NCBI RefSeq assembly: GCF_003259505.1 | Contig: NZ_QLLK01000011.1 | Coordinates: 62,001-126,000, forward strand | Reading direction: 5' to 3' | DNA: 64,000 nt | Source of the DNA: Algoriphagus yeomjeoni | Lineage (GTDB): Bacteria; Bacteroidota; Bacteroidia; Cytophagales; Cyclobacteriaceae | Shown: positions 48,349-55,150 of the stretch, one piece after another | Layout: every line of letters begins with the position of its first letter | Numbering within the stretch: the first letter of the stretch is position 1 | Made by a program: the position numbers and the translations under genes | The notes under the pieces: generated by a model | The model's database searches: none | What the model was told of the DNA's origin: nothing | What the model saw: only the letters and a program-made list of their open reading frames with translations

Positions 48349-49434
48349 CTATTTCATGCTTGGCAAAACGACTTTGAATGTACTGCCTTCTCCAAATACC
48401 GAATACAGATCTACTTTCCCGCCCATTTGCTCTACTGCTTCTTTTACCATATATAGACCTAAACCGGTTCCTACATTCTTTTGTGTTGCTCGGGAAAATA
48501 AATTGAAAACATCGAGGTGATGCTTTTCTTCTATGCCAATACCATTATCTGAAAGAGTGATAGTTGCAAATTTTTCATCGACTTCAATATTCAAATTTAT
48601 CTTATTATCAGTTTGATCTCCTTTCTGGAATTGAACCGAATTGCTAAATAGGTTATTCAGTATAACTCTGATTTTCGAGTCATCTGAATAGAAAAGACTA
48701 GGCTGATTAATTTGGATATCAAGCTGAATGTGGTCAATAATAAACTTCGCTTTATACGCAACAAGCTGTTGCTCAACAACTTCTTTGAAATTGATTTCAG
48801 AGATTTTATTATCAATCTTAGTTGATCTATAGAAGTCAAGCATTTTGTAGATATAATCGTCCAACTTACCAGTTGCACTATCTATCATATCAAAATATTC
48901 CATAGCGGCCGGGTCCTTAAGCTCCATTTTAGCCAATTTGGAAACACCTGAAATGCTCATTAATGGTCCTCTTAATTCATGTGACAAGCTGTAAACAAAC
49001 TGATTCATCTCAGAATGAAGCTTTTTGAGCTTTAGATTTTTGTCTTTGAGCTCTCGACGCATAAAGTAAATATCCGCAGCGTTTTTAATAGAGTTTTTTA
49101 TTTGCTCAATATTCCAAGGCTTATCAATAAATCGATACACTTCGCCTTTATTAATAGCATCAATAACTGAGGCGATGTCAGAATAGCCAGTAAGCAGTAT
49201 CCTGATGGGATCAGGATTAAACTTCACCAACTCCTCAAAGAATTCGGTACCAGTCATTCCTGGCATTCTTTGATCGGCAATTACTACATGGACTTCTTCC
49301 TCCGCGGCGATTTTTAAACCCTCATCAGCATCTATAGCTGTAAAAATTTTAAAGTCCTTTCTTAAAGTAGCCCTGAAAGACTTTAGGTTGTTGTCTTCAT
49401 CGTCTATATAAAGGACATGGATTTTATCATTCAT
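48349..49434 (-). CDS. REC-histidine kinase (response regulator fused to HisKA-HATPase)
   Basis: A 361-residue protein: receiver domain (1-120; DD at 11-12, Asp54 in VVIADQRMPG, Lys105 in IDKPW), a short coiled linker (125-145), HisKA with His152 in SLSHELRGPLMS, and an HATPase (SNSVQFQKG, LSDNGIGIEE, NVGTGLGLYMV). It has no transmembrane segment. It is the last gene of the four-gene operon and overlaps the 7TMR-DISM kinase by eight bases. Its receiver is closely similar to the divergent REC protein at 54677-55150. It probably takes phosphate from the upstream kinase and passes a signal on; the output partner is not in view. Confidence 0.93.
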   Translation of the reverse strand: MNDKIHVLYIDDEDNNLKSFRATLRKDFKIFTAIDADEGLKIAAEEEVHVVIADQRMPGMTGTEFFEELVKFNPDPIRILLTGYSDIASVIDAINKGEVYRFIDKPWNIEQIKNSIKNAADIYFMRRELKDKNLKLKKLHSEMNQFVYSLSHELRGPLMSISGVSKLAKMELKDPAAMEYFDMIDSATGKLDDYIYKMLDFYRSTKIDNKISEINFKEVVEQQLVAYKAKFIIDHIQLDIQINQPSLFYSDDSKIRVILNNLFSNSVQFQKGDQTDNKINLNIEVDEKFATITLSDNGIGIEEKHHLDVFNLFSRATQKNVGTGLGLYMVKEAVEQMGGKVDLYSVFGEGSTFKVVLPSMK

Positions 49435-51526
49435 AGCGTTGAGAGCTTTGGTAAATAGGAAGTGTTATTTTAAATGTAGTCCCCTGGCCCTCTTCCGTAA
49501 TTACTTCCAGCGTTCCTTTGTGATTTTCAATAATAGAGTAAACAATTGAAAGCCCCAAACCCGTACCCTTACCAACTGCCTTTGTAGTAAAGAAAGGTTC
49601 AAATATTCGTTGCTTTACATGATCAGGCATACCTGGCCCATTATCTGAAATTTCAATACTCACAAAATCTCCCAATGACCTGGTTCGAAGTTCAATTATT
49701 GGATCAGCAATAGTGTCTACATGGTCAGCTAGGGCATGAACAGCATTGTTGATAATATTCATAAAAACCTGGTTGATTTTACCAGCGAGACACTCAACCA
49801 AAGGCAGCTCACCGAAGTCACGAACAATGCGGATTTTGGTTGGCATGGTGCTATTTAACAGGATAATTGTACTGTTTATCCCGTCATGCACATCCACCTT
49901 TTTCATATCCTGCTCATCCACACGAGAGAACAACCGGAGACCTTTTACAATTTCCACAGTTCTCTTTGCCCCATCATCCATACCTTTGAGCAATTGGTCA
50001 ACTTCATCGAGCACGTATTCCAATTCAAGATCTTCTTCGAGCTGCTTGGCTTCTTTCTGCGATTCTGGAGTAAATTCCTTAGCTCCGGTAGTTCTATAAA
50101 ACTCAATCACTTCCATAATATCCTTAATATCCCGCTTGAGCGGCATAATATTAGAACTAACAAAGTTGATCGGGTTGTTTATTTCATGTGCAATACCCGC
50201 AGTTAACTGGCCAAGAGAAGCCATTTTTTCTTGATTCACTAGCTGGCTCTGGGTGTTTTGTAAGTTTCGAAGTGCCTGCTCGAGTTCGTCTGTTCTAATT
50301 TTGACTTTTTCTTCTAGCATAGAATTCTGCTCACGAACTAATTGTTCATTTTCAGCTAGGACGATTAGACGTTCGGCTTGTTCTTTTTCCTTTTCTTTCT
50401 TTAGAATATTTATTTTGTCGGCCAGAGCAAATGACAGTAAAAGCGCTTCGAATACAGAACCAAAGGTGAACACATAACTAGTGAAGAAACTATTTGGTAA
50501 AATATTTAAATCTCCCAGTAAAAATATGATCATACTGCAGATCAATAAGGACCAGGAAATTAAAAAGAACTTTGCGGGTCTATATCCTCTGGAAAGGCTG
50601 TAAGATGAAATAAATAGCAAGTAAAAAGGCACAATACCCAAGAAGACCTGTAAAAATCTGAACTTCAATTGACCAATGCCAAAGTCAAATAAAAAGGTTA
50701 ATAAAATGAATACATAAACAACAATTATACTAACTCCAATTTTATAAAAGTTCTTGTTAAAGACTTTAATTTTGAGAAAACTCAAGGAATAAAATATCCC
50801 AACAATATTGACAAGTGCAGTACTGACATAAAATCCGTATTCTTTTAGAAAAACACTATTTGGCCATAATAATGCATCGACATACCCACCTAAAATCCCT
50901 TGGGTAACACCAACAAAAAATATGTAGGTGATATATAAACCATATAAGCTATCCTTTGTAGAAACCCACAAAAAGAGATTGTAAAAGAACATAGCCAACA
51001 CAATTCCGAAGTAGATTCCAAAAACAAGGTTCCGTTCATCTAAAGTCAAATACTCTTTTTTATCACTAAGCAAGGATATTGGGACATTTACATTACCAAA
51101 ACTCCTAACCATCAGGTTGTAAGTCAAGGAATTATCGCCTGAGATATCTGCAAAATTAAACAGTGAGTTGAAGTCCTCATCAACTACATTAACCCTTCCC
51201 ATTTTTTTCAGTAGTACTCCATCAGCATTGTAAACCTCAATCTCATTTAGCATAGGATTGCTTAGTGAGAGAATAAGGTTATCGGAGTTCTTTTGTGCTT
51301 CTGTAAGCACTATTCGTATCCAAAAACTAGAGTCTGAATAGCCAAGGGATAAGAATTCACCATCGGAATTCTGGAGGTTGGAATTTGGTATAGCAATAAA
51401 ATCCTCTATATCGTGAATCTCTTGAGATTCAGCAGTCCAGCCTATAAATTCAAATTGATTCTTAGACTTTTCGCCACAAGATGACAGTAATACCAACGCT
51501 AAAAATATATATATATATTTTATCAT
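49427..51526 (-). CDS. 7TMR-DISM sensor histidine kinase (lipoprotein)
   Basis: A 699-residue membrane kinase. A lipobox (LLSSC, Cys17) precedes an extracytoplasmic 7TMR-DISM ligand-binding domain (about 30-155, with SDSSFWIRI), seven transmembrane helices (about 165-370), a coiled coil (372-435), HisKA with His447 in LTAGIAHEINNPINF, and an HATPase (NNAVHAL, DNGPGMPD, GKGTGLGLSIVYSI). DISM domains often bind small molecules or carbohydrates. The 5' end contains an (AT)7 tract (51505-51518). It overlaps the genes on both sides by four and eight bases. Confidence 0.93.
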   Translation of the reverse strand: MIKYIYIFLALVLLSSCGEKSKNQFEFIGWTAESQEIHDIEDFIAIPNSNLQNSDGEFLSLGYSDSSFWIRIVLTEAQKNSDNLILSLSNPMLNEIEVYNADGVLLKKMGRVNVVDEDFNSLFNFADISGDNSLTYNLMVRSFGNVNVPISLLSDKKEYLTLDERNLVFGIYFGIVLAMFFYNLFLWVSTKDSLYGLYITYIFFVGVTQGILGGYVDALLWPNSVFLKEYGFYVSTALVNIVGIFYSLSFLKIKVFNKNFYKIGVSIIVVYVFILLTFLFDFGIGQLKFRFLQVFLGIVPFYLLFISSYSLSRGYRPAKFFLISWSLLICSMIIFLLGDLNILPNSFFTSYVFTFGSVFEALLLSFALADKINILKKEKEKEQAERLIVLAENEQLVREQNSMLEEKVKIRTDELEQALRNLQNTQSQLVNQEKMASLGQLTAGIAHEINNPINFVSSNIMPLKRDIKDIMEVIEFYRTTGAKEFTPESQKEAKQLEEDLELEYVLDEVDQLLKGMDDGAKRTVEIVKGLRLFSRVDEQDMKKVDVHDGINSTIILLNSTMPTKIRIVRDFGELPLVECLAGKINQVFMNIINNAVHALADHVDTIADPIIELRTRSLGDFVSIEISDNGPGMPDHVKQRIFEPFFTTKAVGKGTGLGLSIVYSIIENHKGTLEVITEEGQGTTFKITLPIYQSSQRYE
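51505..51518. repeat. Dinucleotide (AT)7 tract inside the kinase start region
   Basis: Seven AT units lie within codons 3-8 of the 7TMR-DISM kinase gene (KYIYIF). Gain or loss of one unit would shift the frame right after the start, so the tract could in principle switch the kinase off. Seven units is short for a phase-variable tract. Confidence 0.5.
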
Positions 51527-52209
51527 TGCACATACGATGTATAAGTCAATTTAATCTCTCTCCCTCTATAATTTTCCTCTATCTCTAAGGTATCGTTATC
51601 CCTGATTTTAAAAATGGAATCTCGATGTTCTTGAGTAGTCATAGGTAAATTTTCAGAATCATACATTTTCATAGCTGTAGCGATCAAATCTAATTTTGGA
51701 TAGTAAAATGTCCCATTATTCCCAACCTGCGTCAAAATCTCATAGCCCATTTCTAAACCAAGTTTAACGGTCACCGGAGCGAATAATGCATACAAAGAAG
51801 TAAGGTTAAGCTTTGGAGTGAGTGCTAAGCACGCTTTAGACATAAAAATTGCGCCTATTCCAAGACCAGTGATTTTCCTTGAATTCCACATACCACAAAT
51901 TTCACCAGTGCCTGCATCAATATCCTTTTCGATCACATCTTTGATACTGCTATCCAACTCCTCAATTGCCTCAACCATTGGTAGCGGGTAATCTTTATTT
52001 GCCCGGTGGATTCTCGCTCCCCCGTAGATCAATCCATCTTCATCTGACTCCACGATTACTACAATGACGTCGGGATTATTTATCCAACTATTGTTGGCAG
52101 AAGTCACTTTCTTAACACCTATGCTTTCCAGTACCTGTCGATGTCCTTCTATGAACTTCTGGCACCGCTCAGGGTCATTTATTGCTCTAAATGCGATTAA
52201 TTTGAACAT
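51523..52209 (-). CDS. GNAT-fold acyltransferase, autoinducer-synthase/FeeM-like
   Basis: A 228-residue protein I read as an N-acyltransferase of the LuxI/FeeM-type GNAT group. VIVVIVESDEDGLIYGGARIH (about 48-68) resembles the central strand pair of that fold, then EEL and IEKDIDAGTGEICGMWNSRKI (about 94-113, matching the 'E...R' active-site strand of autoinducer synthases), GLGIGAIFMSKACLAL (CoA/ACP-binding loop and helix), LTSLYALFAPVTVKLGLEMGYE and a C-terminal strand. The acyl donor and acceptor are unknown. It overlaps the sensor kinase by four bases (ATGA) and begins five bases after the ThiF-nitroreductase gene. Confidence 0.55.
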   Translation of the reverse strand: MFKLIAFRAINDPERCQKFIEGHRQVLESIGVKKVTSANNSWINNPDVIVVIVESDEDGLIYGGARIHRANKDYPLPMVEAIEELDSSIKDVIEKDIDAGTGEICGMWNSRKITGLGIGAIFMSKACLALTPKLNLTSLYALFAPVTVKLGLEMGYEILTQVGNNGTFYYPKLDLIATAMKMYDSENLPMTTQEHRDSIFKIRDNDTLEIEENYRGREIKLTYTSYVQ

Positions 52210-52214
52210 CAGGA

Positions 52215-54482
52215 TTACAAGAAAATCAAACTAGCTGAAACATCTCTTCTAAATGCTCTCATTGAAGGCTCGCTCGCTTTATTAATCCTTACCATAAATA
52301 CCTCTTGATTGCTTAAGTTTTTATTAAAAATTTGGTTAAGATCATTTTTAAACTGTAGAATCATCCTCTTCTCATTCTCTGTAAATCCTGTTACAGTTTC
52401 CCTCAATACTCTATGAAAAACAAAAAGAGAAGCTGAAATAGGCTGAAAACTATAGCCGGATAAATTAGCTTTTATCCAAACTCGTTGGATGGCTGCCCCT
52501 GCTTTCAAAAAGGCACCCGGCGTATATTTATCGGCAGTAAACATTAAGACTGCAGATGCAGAAAGTATAGTTTGATCAGAAATTTTCGTCAATCCATACC
52601 CCAAATCATTTTTTCTAAAAAACTCAATGGTTCCTGGATCACGTACTAATCCTACCGCCGCTCGCTCTGATTTTCCCATCTCAAGGGTGGCGATATCAAT
52701 ACCGTCTTTTGTAGCTAAAGCTTCTTCTTCTGACCATCTTATTTCACTCACGAAATCTTCATACCCTTGGTCATGTAGCAATCTTAGACGATCCATTCCC
52801 CCTACAATTGGCGTCAGTGCTCTTAGTCGCTCAAGATCGTCAATGATTTCTAAGTTTACCCCATCTGATGAAGCAATTGTTTGGAACTCTTCAAGCTTCT
52901 CCTTTTCTAAAAGCACTCTATCGGCATTTTTACGATTGGTACATCGCATATCAATACCGTCTACTAAATCTCCATTAGGGACATTTACTGGTTCGTTTGA
53001 TTTTGAATCAAACTCTATGGAGGCAATTAGCTCCTCTCCAAAATTTTGAATATGCTCGTGAATGGTAAGTGCAATACCCATCGAGGAAGCCACTAGTTCA
53101 AAATTCTGCAATGCTGCGCCAAATGCCAATAATGAGCCAGTGCCTAGATAATCAAGTAAAGATTCACTTTTAGATTTGTCATGAAGCAGGTGGAGCACCC
53201 CATGTTGATCGTATATCCACTTCCATGGCTGACTATTCCCTCCTGATGGTGCGGTATTAGCCTTTCCTATTAAATAGATTAAATCCTGCTTAGAGATTTT
53301 ATAGTTAGAAACGTAACTAGTTTTAGGCAAAAAGTCTATAAAATCATAGTCTGAATAGGGAATTTTGATAGTATCTGGAGCTTGCTTTTCGCCTTTGCTC
53401 AATACTAATCCATCCAAATCAACATAGTATCTGCCTGATTCTACATTTTCTCCCAACAATAATTTTCTAGATGCATTCGCTACAGTAGCTCCTCCTAAAT
53501 AAACTGCAGAAGCCAATTGTGGCCATGATGAAATTGACTGACTTAGTTCCAACAAAGAAACCTTCATTCGTGTCGAAATAGTGCTTAAACCTATAATCTT
53601 TAAGCCCACAGGAACCTTTTGTTGGCTTGTTAAATTTTTTAGATCTGAAAAATTAAAATCCCCTAATAGGCCATGAAAAATTTCTCGGGAAGGCTCTCTA
53701 TCAAATCTCTCAACATCCAACATGCCGCGGTCTGAAGTCTCCATTAGCACCGGAATCTTTTTTGCCTTGGCTCTTTCTCTTGCCAGCACTTTCACATCGA
53801 GGCTATCGCACTCATCTATCAGTAAGTCCAAATCCCCACCATCTGACAGGAAATCATCAATATTATCTTCGTTTACCCCTTTTCTGTACAAAGTGACTTT
53901 CAGATAAGGGTCTATTTCAAAAATCTCTCTTGCAGCCAAAATAACCTTCTCTACTCCCAAATCAACCACACCAGCCTTGATCCGATTAAGATTACTCAGC
54001 TCCAAGGTGTCAAAATCTGCCAATCTTAATTCGCCACATCCTCGTTCCAAAGCTATCGCAAATGCTATACTTTGCCCTACTGAAAGTCCAATGATTCCAA
54101 CTTTCTTCTTCCTTAGCTCTTGCTGTTCTTGCGGGGTAATTTTGTAATTATTTCTCGCGGTCCTAACTCGAATAAAATCCTCTTCAGGAAGTAACCTAAC
54201 CAATACTTTCTTCCAAGGAAAGTAAACCCAATTACCATAGTTGCTTCTATCATGTTCAACAAAAAAATGAGAAACACGTGTAGACAACTCTTCTTTGGTG
54301 AAGGACAATGTTGGATTGTCCACTTTTACCAATTCAGCTACTTGGTCATCTAGCTTGTCAAGTAAGCTGACTTCAGAATTATGATACAATTCATTAAAAA
54401 TGGAAGAATCCGAAAAATCTGAAGGCTTAAAGATTGAGGGAAAAACCTGATCATCAAGATGAAACTGTGTACTGCTAAACAT
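52215..54482 (-). CDS. ThiF/E1-like and nitroreductase fusion protein (Rv1355c/MoeY-like)
   Basis: A 755-residue fusion. Residues 1-120 form a helical N-terminal domain. The ThiF/E1 domain (about 125-355) has the Rossmann motif VGIIGLSVGQS (128-138), LADFDTLELSNLNR (154-167; aspartate and the arginine finger of adenylating E1 enzymes), the following Lys179, and LLIDECDS (220-227). It lacks the CxxC zinc ligands of many ThiF proteins. A nitroreductase-like domain (about 395-700) starts with ANTAPSGGNSQPWKW (408-422), an FMN-binding segment. This order matches Rv1355c of M. tuberculosis (annotated moeY). It is the first gene of the operon. Confidence 0.85.
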   Translation of the reverse strand: MFSSTQFHLDDQVFPSIFKPSDFSDSSIFNELYHNSEVSLLDKLDDQVAELVKVDNPTLSFTKEELSTRVSHFFVEHDRSNYGNWVYFPWKKVLVRLLPEEDFIRVRTARNNYKITPQEQQELRKKKVGIIGLSVGQSIAFAIALERGCGELRLADFDTLELSNLNRIKAGVVDLGVEKVILAAREIFEIDPYLKVTLYRKGVNEDNIDDFLSDGGDLDLLIDECDSLDVKVLARERAKAKKIPVLMETSDRGMLDVERFDREPSREIFHGLLGDFNFSDLKNLTSQQKVPVGLKIIGLSTISTRMKVSLLELSQSISSWPQLASAVYLGGATVANASRKLLLGENVESGRYYVDLDGLVLSKGEKQAPDTIKIPYSDYDFIDFLPKTSYVSNYKISKQDLIYLIGKANTAPSGGNSQPWKWIYDQHGVLHLLHDKSKSESLLDYLGTGSLLAFGAALQNFELVASSMGIALTIHEHIQNFGEELIASIEFDSKSNEPVNVPNGDLVDGIDMRCTNRKNADRVLLEKEKLEEFQTIASSDGVNLEIIDDLERLRALTPIVGGMDRLRLLHDQGYEDFVSEIRWSEEEALATKDGIDIATLEMGKSERAAVGLVRDPGTIEFFRKNDLGYGLTKISDQTILSASAVLMFTADKYTPGAFLKAGAAIQRVWIKANLSGYSFQPISASLFVFHRVLRETVTGFTENEKRMILQFKNDLNQIFNKNLSNQEVFMVRINKASEPSMRAFRRDVSASLIFL

Positions 54483-54676
54483 TTCGTATTATCGGGGGTG
54501 ACAAATTGAAGTAAAGTTAATTTTTTCAACTATAAGTCCAATTTTTTAATACCCTTTATAGTGTATCTTTTTATATTAGTATTCAAAAAGTTCTAGAAAA
54601 TAGTTTTCAATAGTTACTTTTATAAAAAAATACTGTTTGATCGTAACGTATCGATTGTTTTAGACAAATTTGTTAA
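54483..54676. promoter_or_regulatory. Divergent promoter region between the operon and the REC gene
   Basis: A 194-base, A/T-rich region between the divergent ThiF-nitroreductase and REC genes. It must hold both promoters. I see no exact consensus; near 54610-54670 CGTAACGTATCG is a partial dyad that could be an operator. Confidence 0.4.
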
Positions 54677-55150
54677 ATGGAAACTACGCCTCAAGAAAAA
54701 ATAAAAATACTCTATGTCGATGATGAAGAAAATAACCTTCAGGCATTCAAGGCTACTTTTAGAAGAGATTACCAAATTTTTCTCGCAATCGACGCTACAG
54801 TAGCCCGAGAGGTGCTTTCTAAGCAGGAAGTTGACATAATTATCACGGATCAGAGAATGCCTGGCGAAACTGGTGTGGAATTTTTAGAATCAATTATTCC
54901 AATTTATCCGAACCCAATAAGAATATTACTGACTGGCTATACTGATATCCAAGCTGTAATTGATGCGATCAACAAAGGACAAGTATATCACTACCTGACA
55001 AAACCTTGGGAAGAAGATTACTTAAGAACTGTAATCAAAAATGCGTTTGAAATTTATCAGCTTCGTAGAGAAAATGAAAAATTGACCAAAGCACTAATTA
55101 AGGCCAATGATCAATTGGAATTTATTTTACGACAGAATCTACTATCCTAA
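54677..55150 (+). CDS. Single-domain response regulator
   Basis: A 157-residue receiver-only protein. Asp58 (IIITDQRMPG) is the phospho-acceptor; DD at 15-16 and Lys108 (LTKPWEEDY) are present. A short helical tail (about 125-157) follows without an output domain. Its receiver is very close to that of the REC-kinase at 48349-49434 (shared YVDDEENNL/YIDDEDNNL, DQRMPG, IRILLTGY and VIDAINKG), so the two probably arose by duplication. It lies divergently from the operon, 194 bases away, and its end is one base from the convergent alanine dehydrogenase. Confidence 0.92.
   Translation: METTPQEKIKILYVDDEENNLQAFKATFRRDYQIFLAIDATVAREVLSKQEVDIIITDQRMPGETGVEFLESIIPIYPNPIRILLTGYTDIQAVIDAINKGQVYHYLTKPWEEDYLRTVIKNAFEIYQLRRENEKLTKALIKANDQLEFILRQNLLS

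Follow-up and report, generated by a model that had tools for sequence, protein, structure and literature searches.

A Bacteroidota gene cassette that links a predicted N-acyl amino acid synthase to a co-varying 7TMR-DISM receptor kinase

Introduction

The stretch of DNA analysed here (the window; 64,000 nucleotides of contig NZ_QLLK01000011.1 from Algoriphagus yeomjeoni) holds a compact five-gene locus that appears to combine the synthesis of a small molecule with its sensing. Four of the genes lie on the minus strand. Gene 1 (52215-54482, 755 residues) is a ThiF-nitroreductase fusion of the Rv1355c/TrzS type. It is followed after a gap of 5 bases (52210-52214) by gene 2 (51523-52209, 228 residues), a predicted acyltransferase resembling N-acyl amino acid synthases. 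Gene 3 (49427-51526, 699 residues), by Pfam a 7TMR-DISM receptor histidine kinase, overlaps gene 2 by 4 bases (51523-51526), and gene 4 (48349-49434, 361 residues), by Pfam a receiver-histidine kinase, overlaps gene 3 by 8 bases (49427-49434). A stand-alone receiver of 157 residues (54677-55150; Pfam Response_reg) diverges from them on the plus strand and is a possible output protein. An earlier, sequence-only reading of this DNA had reported the same gene order and the same spacing, and the coordinates of the open reading frames (ORFs), which give +5, -4 and -8 bases, bear it out; the domains it assigned to the five genes agree with Pfam, in which gene 2 has no family.

Enzymes related to genes 1 and 2 have been described. 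The Rv1355c family includes TrzS, which converts N-acyl-tryptophan to an oxazolone; TrzA acylates L-tryptophan from acyl-CoA, and a Mycobacterium smegmatis member of the family together with M. tuberculosis TrzA made tryptazolone in vitro (PMC12856293). A sister pathway, TyzACB, yields tyrazolones (PMC10404671). Acid hydrolyses oxazolones (PMC12856293). The sequence-only reading called the locus possibly undescribed, which does not hold for its enzyme half: an oxazolone pathway of N-acyltransferase, ThiF cyclase and flavin oxidase has been published (TrzAS, PMC12856293; TyzACB, PMC10404671). What oxazolones do physiologically has been named a major unresolved question, and their likeness to cell-cell signals has been noted (PMC12856293). 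For another group of acylated amino acids, the N-acyl amino acid methyl esters (NAMEs) of Roseovarius, no candidate synthase gene was found according to PMC11580390, and the portion of that report used here names no receptor.

Here we report the gene content, predicted fold, conservation, exchange and co-variation of this cassette. In Algoriphagus, alleles of the acyltransferase and of the sensor half of the kinase are exchanged as one block that ends near the end of the transmembrane domain, and the kinase half does not follow. We conclude that the locus is probably a self-contained cassette for a carboxyl-capped N-acyl amino acid signal and its cognate seven-transmembrane (7TM) receptor kinase.

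Results

The enzymes

Gene 1 matches the NCBIfam model of the Rv1355c family, NF005901, with 747.2 bits (cut-off 476) over residues 11-750. Pfam finds a ThiF and a Nitroreductase domain in it, and many of its Algoriphagus relatives carry the NCBI name Rv1355c family. The catalytic residues of TrzS are D217, R540 and Q651 (PMC12856293). Asp226 of gene 1 is invariant in 14 ThiF rows and three actinobacterial relatives and may correspond to D217; R540 and Q651 could not be placed in gene 1, in which the spacing of the candidate residues does not fit.

Gene 2 matches no Pfam or NCBIfam family at E <= 0.01, and a sequence search against solved structures returned nothing significant (best E 0.38). 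Its AlphaFold2 model, built on a 17-row alignment, has a mean predicted local distance difference test score of 90. The first six Foldseek ranks for this model are FeeM (PDB 2g0b, best E 3.7e-8), the best structural match, yet at 13-15% identity; ranks 7-10 are BjaI, a synthase of N-acyl-homoserine lactone (AHL). The sequence-only reading had called the protein autoinducer-synthase-like. That likeness is one of predicted fold alone, and by family model gene 2 is not a LuxI-type AHL synthase. To our knowledge FeeM has no sensor partner. Gene 2 has 1121 homologues and is 97% identical to that of A. winogradskyi.

As in the Rv1355c/TrzS systems, then, a gene resembling N-acyl amino acid synthases adjoins the fusion gene. 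From its family, gene 1 is predicted to turn an N-acyl amino acid into an oxazolone by cyclisation and desaturation; because gene 1 belongs to the TrzS family and the model of gene 2 is closest to FeeM, an N-acyl oxazolone is the most likely joint product. TrzAS of Mycobacterium and Rhodococcus (PMC12856293) is alike in placing an NF005901 ThiF-flavin oxidase fusion beside an N-acyltransferase gene. It differs in that a DISM kinase, a receiver-kinase and a receiver are linked here, and gene 2 is only weakly similar to the neighbour of a Rhodococcus relative: profile comparison with the neighbours of three actinobacterial ThiF genes gave this one weak match (E 0.01, probability 4%) and two non-matches. 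TyzACB of M. tuberculosis likewise has an acyltransferase, a ThiF cyclase and a flavin oxidase, and TyzA resembles FeeM and BjaI in fold, as the gene 2 model does; unlike in the fusion of gene 1, the Tyz ThiF protein and oxidase are separate genes, and the sections of that report drawn on here mention no linked kinases (PMC10404671). OxzAB of Pseudoalteromonas rubra, as cited in PMC12856293 and PMC10404671, has the same three activities.

Three relatives of gene 1 deserve a separate mention. L158 (genome G519) is a lone ThiF gene with neither acyltransferase nor kinases, scoring 322 bits against NF005901, below its cut-off. On the Rhodococcus qingshengii plasmid pLP1 (L264), an Rv1355c-family gene lies near a GGDEF gene; genes for cyclic di-GMP adjoin trzAS in M. 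tuberculosis (PMC12856293). A Streptomyces plasmid (L266:3926-5724) encodes a ThiF protein without nitroreductase that is 46.6% identical and overlaps an annotated GNAT gene by 4 bases; that GNAT gene does not match the gene 2 profile.

The sensor kinase and the receivers

Pfam places a 7TMR-DISM_7TM domain (141.1 bits, cut-off 29) at residues 166-371 of gene 3, together with 7TMR-DISMED2 (42.2 bits, cut-off 22) and HATPase_c; HisKA, at 26.8 bits, falls just below its cut-off of 26.9, and there is an HEI motif at His447. We divide the protein into a sensor half comprising the periplasmic DISMED2 and 7TM domains (residues 1-360; minus strand, 50447-51526) and a kinase half (residues 381-699; minus strand, 49430-50386). 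Gene 4 has Response_reg, HisKA and HATPase_c domains, and its receiver is 50% identical to the divergent one. The sequence-only reading had described gene 3 as a lipoprotein. A lipobox-like motif is indeed there, but it is not conserved across the Algoriphagus sensors, occurring in 12 of the 19 of the window's type and in 0 of the 29 others; a lipoprotein anchor was therefore rejected as a feature of the cassette.

Receivers of this kind matched at E <= 1e-20 in 92 of 395 genomes sampled from the phylum, with no more than nine candidates scored per genome. At E <= 1e-50, matches occurred in 10 genomes of the sample, all among the 13 that have the acyltransferase. Two variations were seen in this part of the locus. 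In several loci a third small receiver-like gene (130-140 residues) follows the receiver-kinase (L184:16438-16830, L189:16374-16775, L193:14889-15311 and L222:14930-15343); both of those tested, L184 and L193, are Response_reg by Pfam, and the window has no such gene at that place. In a genome outside the class (L263:3244-4653) the partner in the position of the receiver-kinase is a receiver-PAS-HisKA_3 protein.

Conservation of the cassette

With the ThiF gene as anchor (E <= 1e-30), matches were obtained in 10 of the 395 genomes of the phylum sample, in 54 of the 72 from the genus (49 of the 50 of high quality) and in 54 of the 245 from the family; these sets overlap. The searches gave 105 loci, of which 104 were used; L164, a fragment without ThiF, was left out. 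In 100 of the 104, the window included, an acyltransferase and a DISM kinase lie on the same strand no more than five ORFs from the ThiF gene, and a receiver-kinase is also present in 95. Three of the four exceptions are contig ends (L072, L094 and L165), and the fourth, L158, is a ThiF gene without the cassette. The sequence-only reading had made its proposal depend on homologues of the fusion gene keeping company with the acyltransferase and the kinases. Within Bacteroidota they do so in these 100 of 104 loci. In the relatives covered outside the phylum they do not: three plasmid-borne Rv1355c-like genes of Actinomycetota have no such kinases within 4 kb.

The Cyclobacteriaceae loci have common flanks and so are not independent of one another. 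Elsewhere in the class, five loci (L159-L163) that represent three families all have different flanks, and four of them also have a different gene order. An alignment search with the acyltransferase found 13 of the 395 phylum genomes positive; a DISM kinase is adjacent or one gene away in all 13, including L263 outside the class, and flanks and gene order vary among them. Mere synteny was rejected as an explanation, as order and flanks differ outside Cyclobacteriaceae. In a further scan of species genomes we kept the best 80 loci of 541 relatives, a set that overlaps the 104 and is biased to near relatives, the 395-genome sample being the even one. It covers Algoriphagus, Pedobacter, Sphingobacterium, Parapedobacter, Daejeonella, Taibaiella, Arachidicoccus, other genera and uncultured Bacteroidetes, and in 79 of these best 80 named loci no more than one gene separates a DISM kinase gene from the acyltransferase. 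Among the 80, only the start of the kinase is present in L231, it is divided between two ORFs in L199 and L240, and the sequence of L187 stops directly behind the acyltransferase.

Few such genes exist elsewhere in the genome: gene 2 occurs in one copy, the 7TMR-DISM_7TM domain at three places, of which gene 3 is one, and receivers of this kind (E <= 1e-15) number two, both at the locus. Because of this scarcity and of the recurrence in 100/104 and 79/80 loci, the arrangement is not a product of chance. A synthase linked to a receptor kinase is also the pattern of two-component quorum sensing, with gene 2 as the presumed maker of the signal.

The same linkage could serve an antimicrobial or stress metabolite, with the kinase as an autoregulatory or self-protection sensor that controls production rather than communication; the sensor would be matched to the synthase in this case too. 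Lantibiotic control of the NisK type is a model for such a sensor, and the exchange of matched pairs, described below, is also known for bacteriocin systems. This reading draws support from chemistry, since some N-acyl amino acids have antibiotic activity and the N-acyl tyrosine derivatives found in Stieleria act as antimicrobials (PMC10404671, PMC12856293). We nevertheless regard it as rather unlikely: no recurring transporter or immunity gene was noticed in the neighbourhood tables of the cassette, in which unmatched neighbours were not annotated singly.

An exchangeable middle enzyme

The middle enzyme of the cassette is swapped while the rest stays. Among the best 80 loci, 76 could be classified: 29 have a ThiF-nitroreductase, 16 ThiF alone, 29 a protein of about 254 residues and two a nitroreductase fragment at a contig start. 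In the other four the kinase is missing, truncated or split. The proteins of about 254 residues were called methyltransferases by length, and the three tested by Pfam are all class I methyltransferases. In two further loci, L261 and L262, an ICMT-family carboxyl methyltransferase is the middle enzyme (PF04140, 70.6 bits for L261; L262 is 41% identical to L261). The ThiF-nitroreductase fusion singled out by the sequence-only reading is therefore present here as described but is one of several states of the locus and not essential to it.

What could such different enzymes have in common? ThiF-like enzymes activate carboxylates, and ICMT methylates a carboxylate. A fold search with a model of the class I methyltransferase did not settle its target group; the top 50 matches include N- and S-methyltransferases, other small-molecule methyltransferases and juvenile hormone acid methyltransferase. 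Judged from these families, the simplest common rule would be that the second enzyme masks the carboxylate of an N-acyl amino acid. Because the fusion can give way to ThiF by itself or to either a class I or a carboxyl methyltransferase, the general rule among the relatives may be an N-acyl amino acid with a masked carboxylate together with a matched receptor.

Co-variation of synthase and sensor

We compared pairwise distances between the proteins of the locus, removed the background with three flanking proteins and the divergent receiver, and assessed the partial correlations by permutation. The flanking genes are presumably those of alanine dehydrogenase, a pyrophosphatase and a PglZ-like regulator. 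All needed genes were present in 43 fused and 48 total Algoriphagus loci and in 93 loci of the family. Across the 43 fused loci, distances of the acyltransferase correlate with those of the sensor half at a partial r of 0.94, and with those of the kinase half and of gene 4 at 0.02 each. Across the 93 family loci the values are 0.89 for the sensor and -0.04 for the kinase half.

The boundary lies within gene 3. For pairs of the two largest acyltransferase types at background distances of 0.08-0.25, identity between types is below identity within types over roughly the first 360 residues of gene 3, a stretch that stops close to where the 7TM domain ends; from residue 381 on, the two are equal within 0.02. 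Types are told apart most sharply in 7TM segments (residues 201-220, 281-300 and 321-340), which would fit a lipophilic ligand met in the membrane. When five acyltransferase types are distinguished among the 48 loci, the nearest neighbour has the same type in 48 cases by the sensor, 34 by ThiF, 28 by the kinase half and 25-31 by the other genes. Four groups of sensors match the acyltransferase types perfectly (adjusted Rand index 1.0).

Sphingobacteriaceae and relatives offer a second arrangement, with the order acyltransferase, middle gene, sensor. With gene 4, the receiver and the kinase half removed, the acyltransferase still follows the sensor across the intervening gene, at a partial r of 0.81 in 27 methyltransferase loci and 0.91 in 14 ThiF loci, and it follows that gene itself at the slightly lower values of 0.75 and 0.78. 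The middle gene follows the sensor at 0.95 and 0.90, respectively. Pooled over 47 loci, acyltransferase and sensor correlate at 0.64; for the pooled set the sensor was delimited at the alignment column where 19 rows have a certain motif. Once gene 4 and the receiver are accounted for, the kinase half is unrelated to the acyltransferase in the 27 methyltransferase loci (-0.04). Between ThiF and methyltransferase loci, the between/within difference is 1.51-fold for the sensor and 1.05-fold for the kinase half, and the kind of middle enzyme is shared with the nearest neighbour in all 41 loci by the sensor, 39 by the acyltransferase and 34-36 by the kinase half (34), gene 4 and the receiver. The sensor thus follows both enzymes, as expected for a sensor of the finished product. 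Co-variation of a synthase with the sensor region and not with the kinase domain is the pattern of pherotype quorum sensing, and the locus shows it, with a weaker contrast in the other gene order.

Exchange of alleles as a block

We placed the acyltransferase types on a tree of the 48 Algoriphagus loci, which was made by a quick method from six flanking or kinase proteins and has stars on 29 of its 45 inner branches. At least 11 changes of type are needed when four types are distinguished and 16 with five; the fusion state changes twice. Even close relatives can differ in type. L085 and L086, at a background distance of 0.007, are 86-99% identical in DNA outside a block that covers gene 2 and the sensor half, and 42-55% identical inside it. 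In three close pairs from separate clades, this one, L095/L096 and L077/L078, the block runs from residue 753/755 of gene 1 to residue 365 of the kinase.

We delimited such blocks in 17 pairs, not all of them independent: L070/L073 and L071/L075 probably share an event, as do L065/L068 and L064/L069. The downstream end falls at residues 344-365 in 14 pairs; of the other three, one has it at 314 and two have it at 167-173. More variable is the upstream end, lying at the end of gene 1 in three pairs, elsewhere in gene 1 in three, inside gene 2 in five and at the ThiF/nitroreductase junction (339-366) in six. Because of this variation the flavin domain sometimes moves too. In the near-identical pair L083/L084 (background distance 0.011) the exchanged block also takes in most of the ThiF-nitroreductase.

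Exchange of this kind bears on a third reading, in which the product of genes 1 and 2 is a membrane lipid or lipoamino acid that helps to adapt the envelope, whose state the kinase would sense. Tyrazolones and tryptazolones were found mostly in cells and not in supernatants (PMC12856293, PMC10404671), as such a role would have it. A housekeeping lipid would not be expected to have its synthase type exchanged in step with the sensor among near-identical genomes, nor to depend on a cassette as patchy as one found in 13 of 395 genomes, and we hold this reading to be very improbable indeed.

Findings that weigh against a matched synthase and sensor

Several observations weigh against a signal cassette in which synthase and sensor alone are matched. 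First, other parts are not wholly free of the acyltransferase. In the 43 fused loci it shows weak but significant correlations with ThiF (0.20) and the nitroreductase (0.18, p 0.001). When the five unfused loci are added (48 in all), the sensor stays at 0.94, and the kinase half rises to 0.13 (p 0.006), gene 4 to 0.11 and ThiF to 0.45; across the 93 family loci ThiF reaches 0.58. The contrast is less clean in the other gene order, where the kinase half correlates at 0.37 (p 0.023) across the 14 ThiF loci, and the six blocks that begin at the ThiF/nitroreductase junction include the nitroreductase. Second, the match between types is imperfect at finer resolution: sensors in five groups agree with the five acyltransferase types at an adjusted Rand index of 0.62. 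Partial Mantel tests, moreover, may overstate significance where ancestry is not fully removed. Third, five of the 104 loci have the acyltransferase and the DISM kinase without the receiver-kinase, and the cassette lacks a DNA-binding output protein. In five regions of acyltransferase-negative genomes (L267-L271), a kinase like the kinase half of gene 3, with other sensor regions, stands beside a receiver protein, and three of the five receiver proteins also match the kinase part of gene 4. The idea that these kinases are exclusive to the cassette was accordingly rejected; the kinase and receiver look like a general signalling module with exchangeable sensors.

The most direct objection is physical linkage. 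Genes 2 and 3 are adjacent in Algoriphagus, so their co-variation there is partly a matter of position. The kinase might respond to another stimulus, with gene 2 and the sensor half co-inherited in one recombination block; that the block ends where conserved kinase sequence starts is what homologous recombination would give. Four points make this improbable. The nitroreductase domain is closer, lying 5 bases upstream of gene 2, yet it is weakly linked. Acyltransferase and sensor still co-vary where the middle gene intervenes, and the type of middle enzyme is reflected in the sensor. The pairing is kept in other families with other flanks. Finally, pressure on the exposed sensor alone would not diversify an acyltransferase that is predicted to be cytosolic.

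Discussion

That the first two proteins make a small molecule sensed by the kinase pair was the central proposal of the sequence-only reading. The co-variation and joint exchange of acyltransferase and sensor half support it well. We infer a chemical product, its binding, a direction of phosphotransfer and a use between cells. Gene 2 would acylate an amino acid at its amino group. The ThiF domain of gene 1 would activate the carboxylate with ATP and close the oxazolone, which the flavin domain would desaturate. The product, which would be neutral and lipophilic, could get as far as the membrane or leave the cell, and gene 3 may recognise it there through its periplasmic and 7TM part. Phosphotransfer would then run to gene 4 and the stand-alone receiver, and the specificities of synthase and receptor would change together by allele exchange.

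Taken together, we lean slightly towards a wider claim: that the cassettes represent a new class of cell-cell signalling in Bacteroidota. Its signals would be N-acyl amino acids masked by four interchangeable types of enzyme (as oxazolones by ThiF with or without desaturation, or as methyl esters by a class I or an ICMT-type methyltransferase) and read by 7TMR-DISM kinases, and its pherotypes would spread between close species by exchange of synthase-plus-receptor alleles. ComQXPA of Bacillus subtilis is alike in its linked synthesis gene and receptor kinase, a variable membrane domain, a conserved cytoplasmic domain and specificity groups. The two differ in receptor family and output, and in the signal: an isoprenylated peptide in B. 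subtilis, as against the acyl amino acid predicted for the present system (PMC4008528). By analogy, the cassette may work like a pherotype system; we do not claim it as a member of the ComQXPA type.

We recognised no published link between these enzymes and kinases in the openly licensed literature, judged by titles and the beginnings of abstracts. The pathway to which the enzymes are related was published recently; their coupling to a receptor, the swapping of capping enzymes and the joint exchange of synthase and receptor alleles were not found described in the literature so searched. If the signalling reading holds, it would give Bacteroidota acyl-based signalling without a LuxI family member and would suggest a class of ligand for 7TMR-DISM kinases. 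NAMEs of the Roseovarius kind (PMC11580390) would be the kind of product to expect from the methyltransferase variants, which would then offer candidates for the genes behind such methyl esters. Related enzymes here come with a synthase-matched receptor, so the question of what oxazolones do becomes directly testable in environmental strains, for which near-identical genomes with swapped types are natural experiments.

The 194 bases between gene 1 and the receiver (54483-54676) presumably hold the promoters of both; in an alignment of the 48 Algoriphagus loci they show conserved short patches only and no clear operator. In many Algoriphagus assemblies (for example G076, G111, G194, G409 and G410) the locus lies about 27 kb from the start of a contig, which suggests a conserved assembly break nearby, possibly a ribosomal RNA operon.

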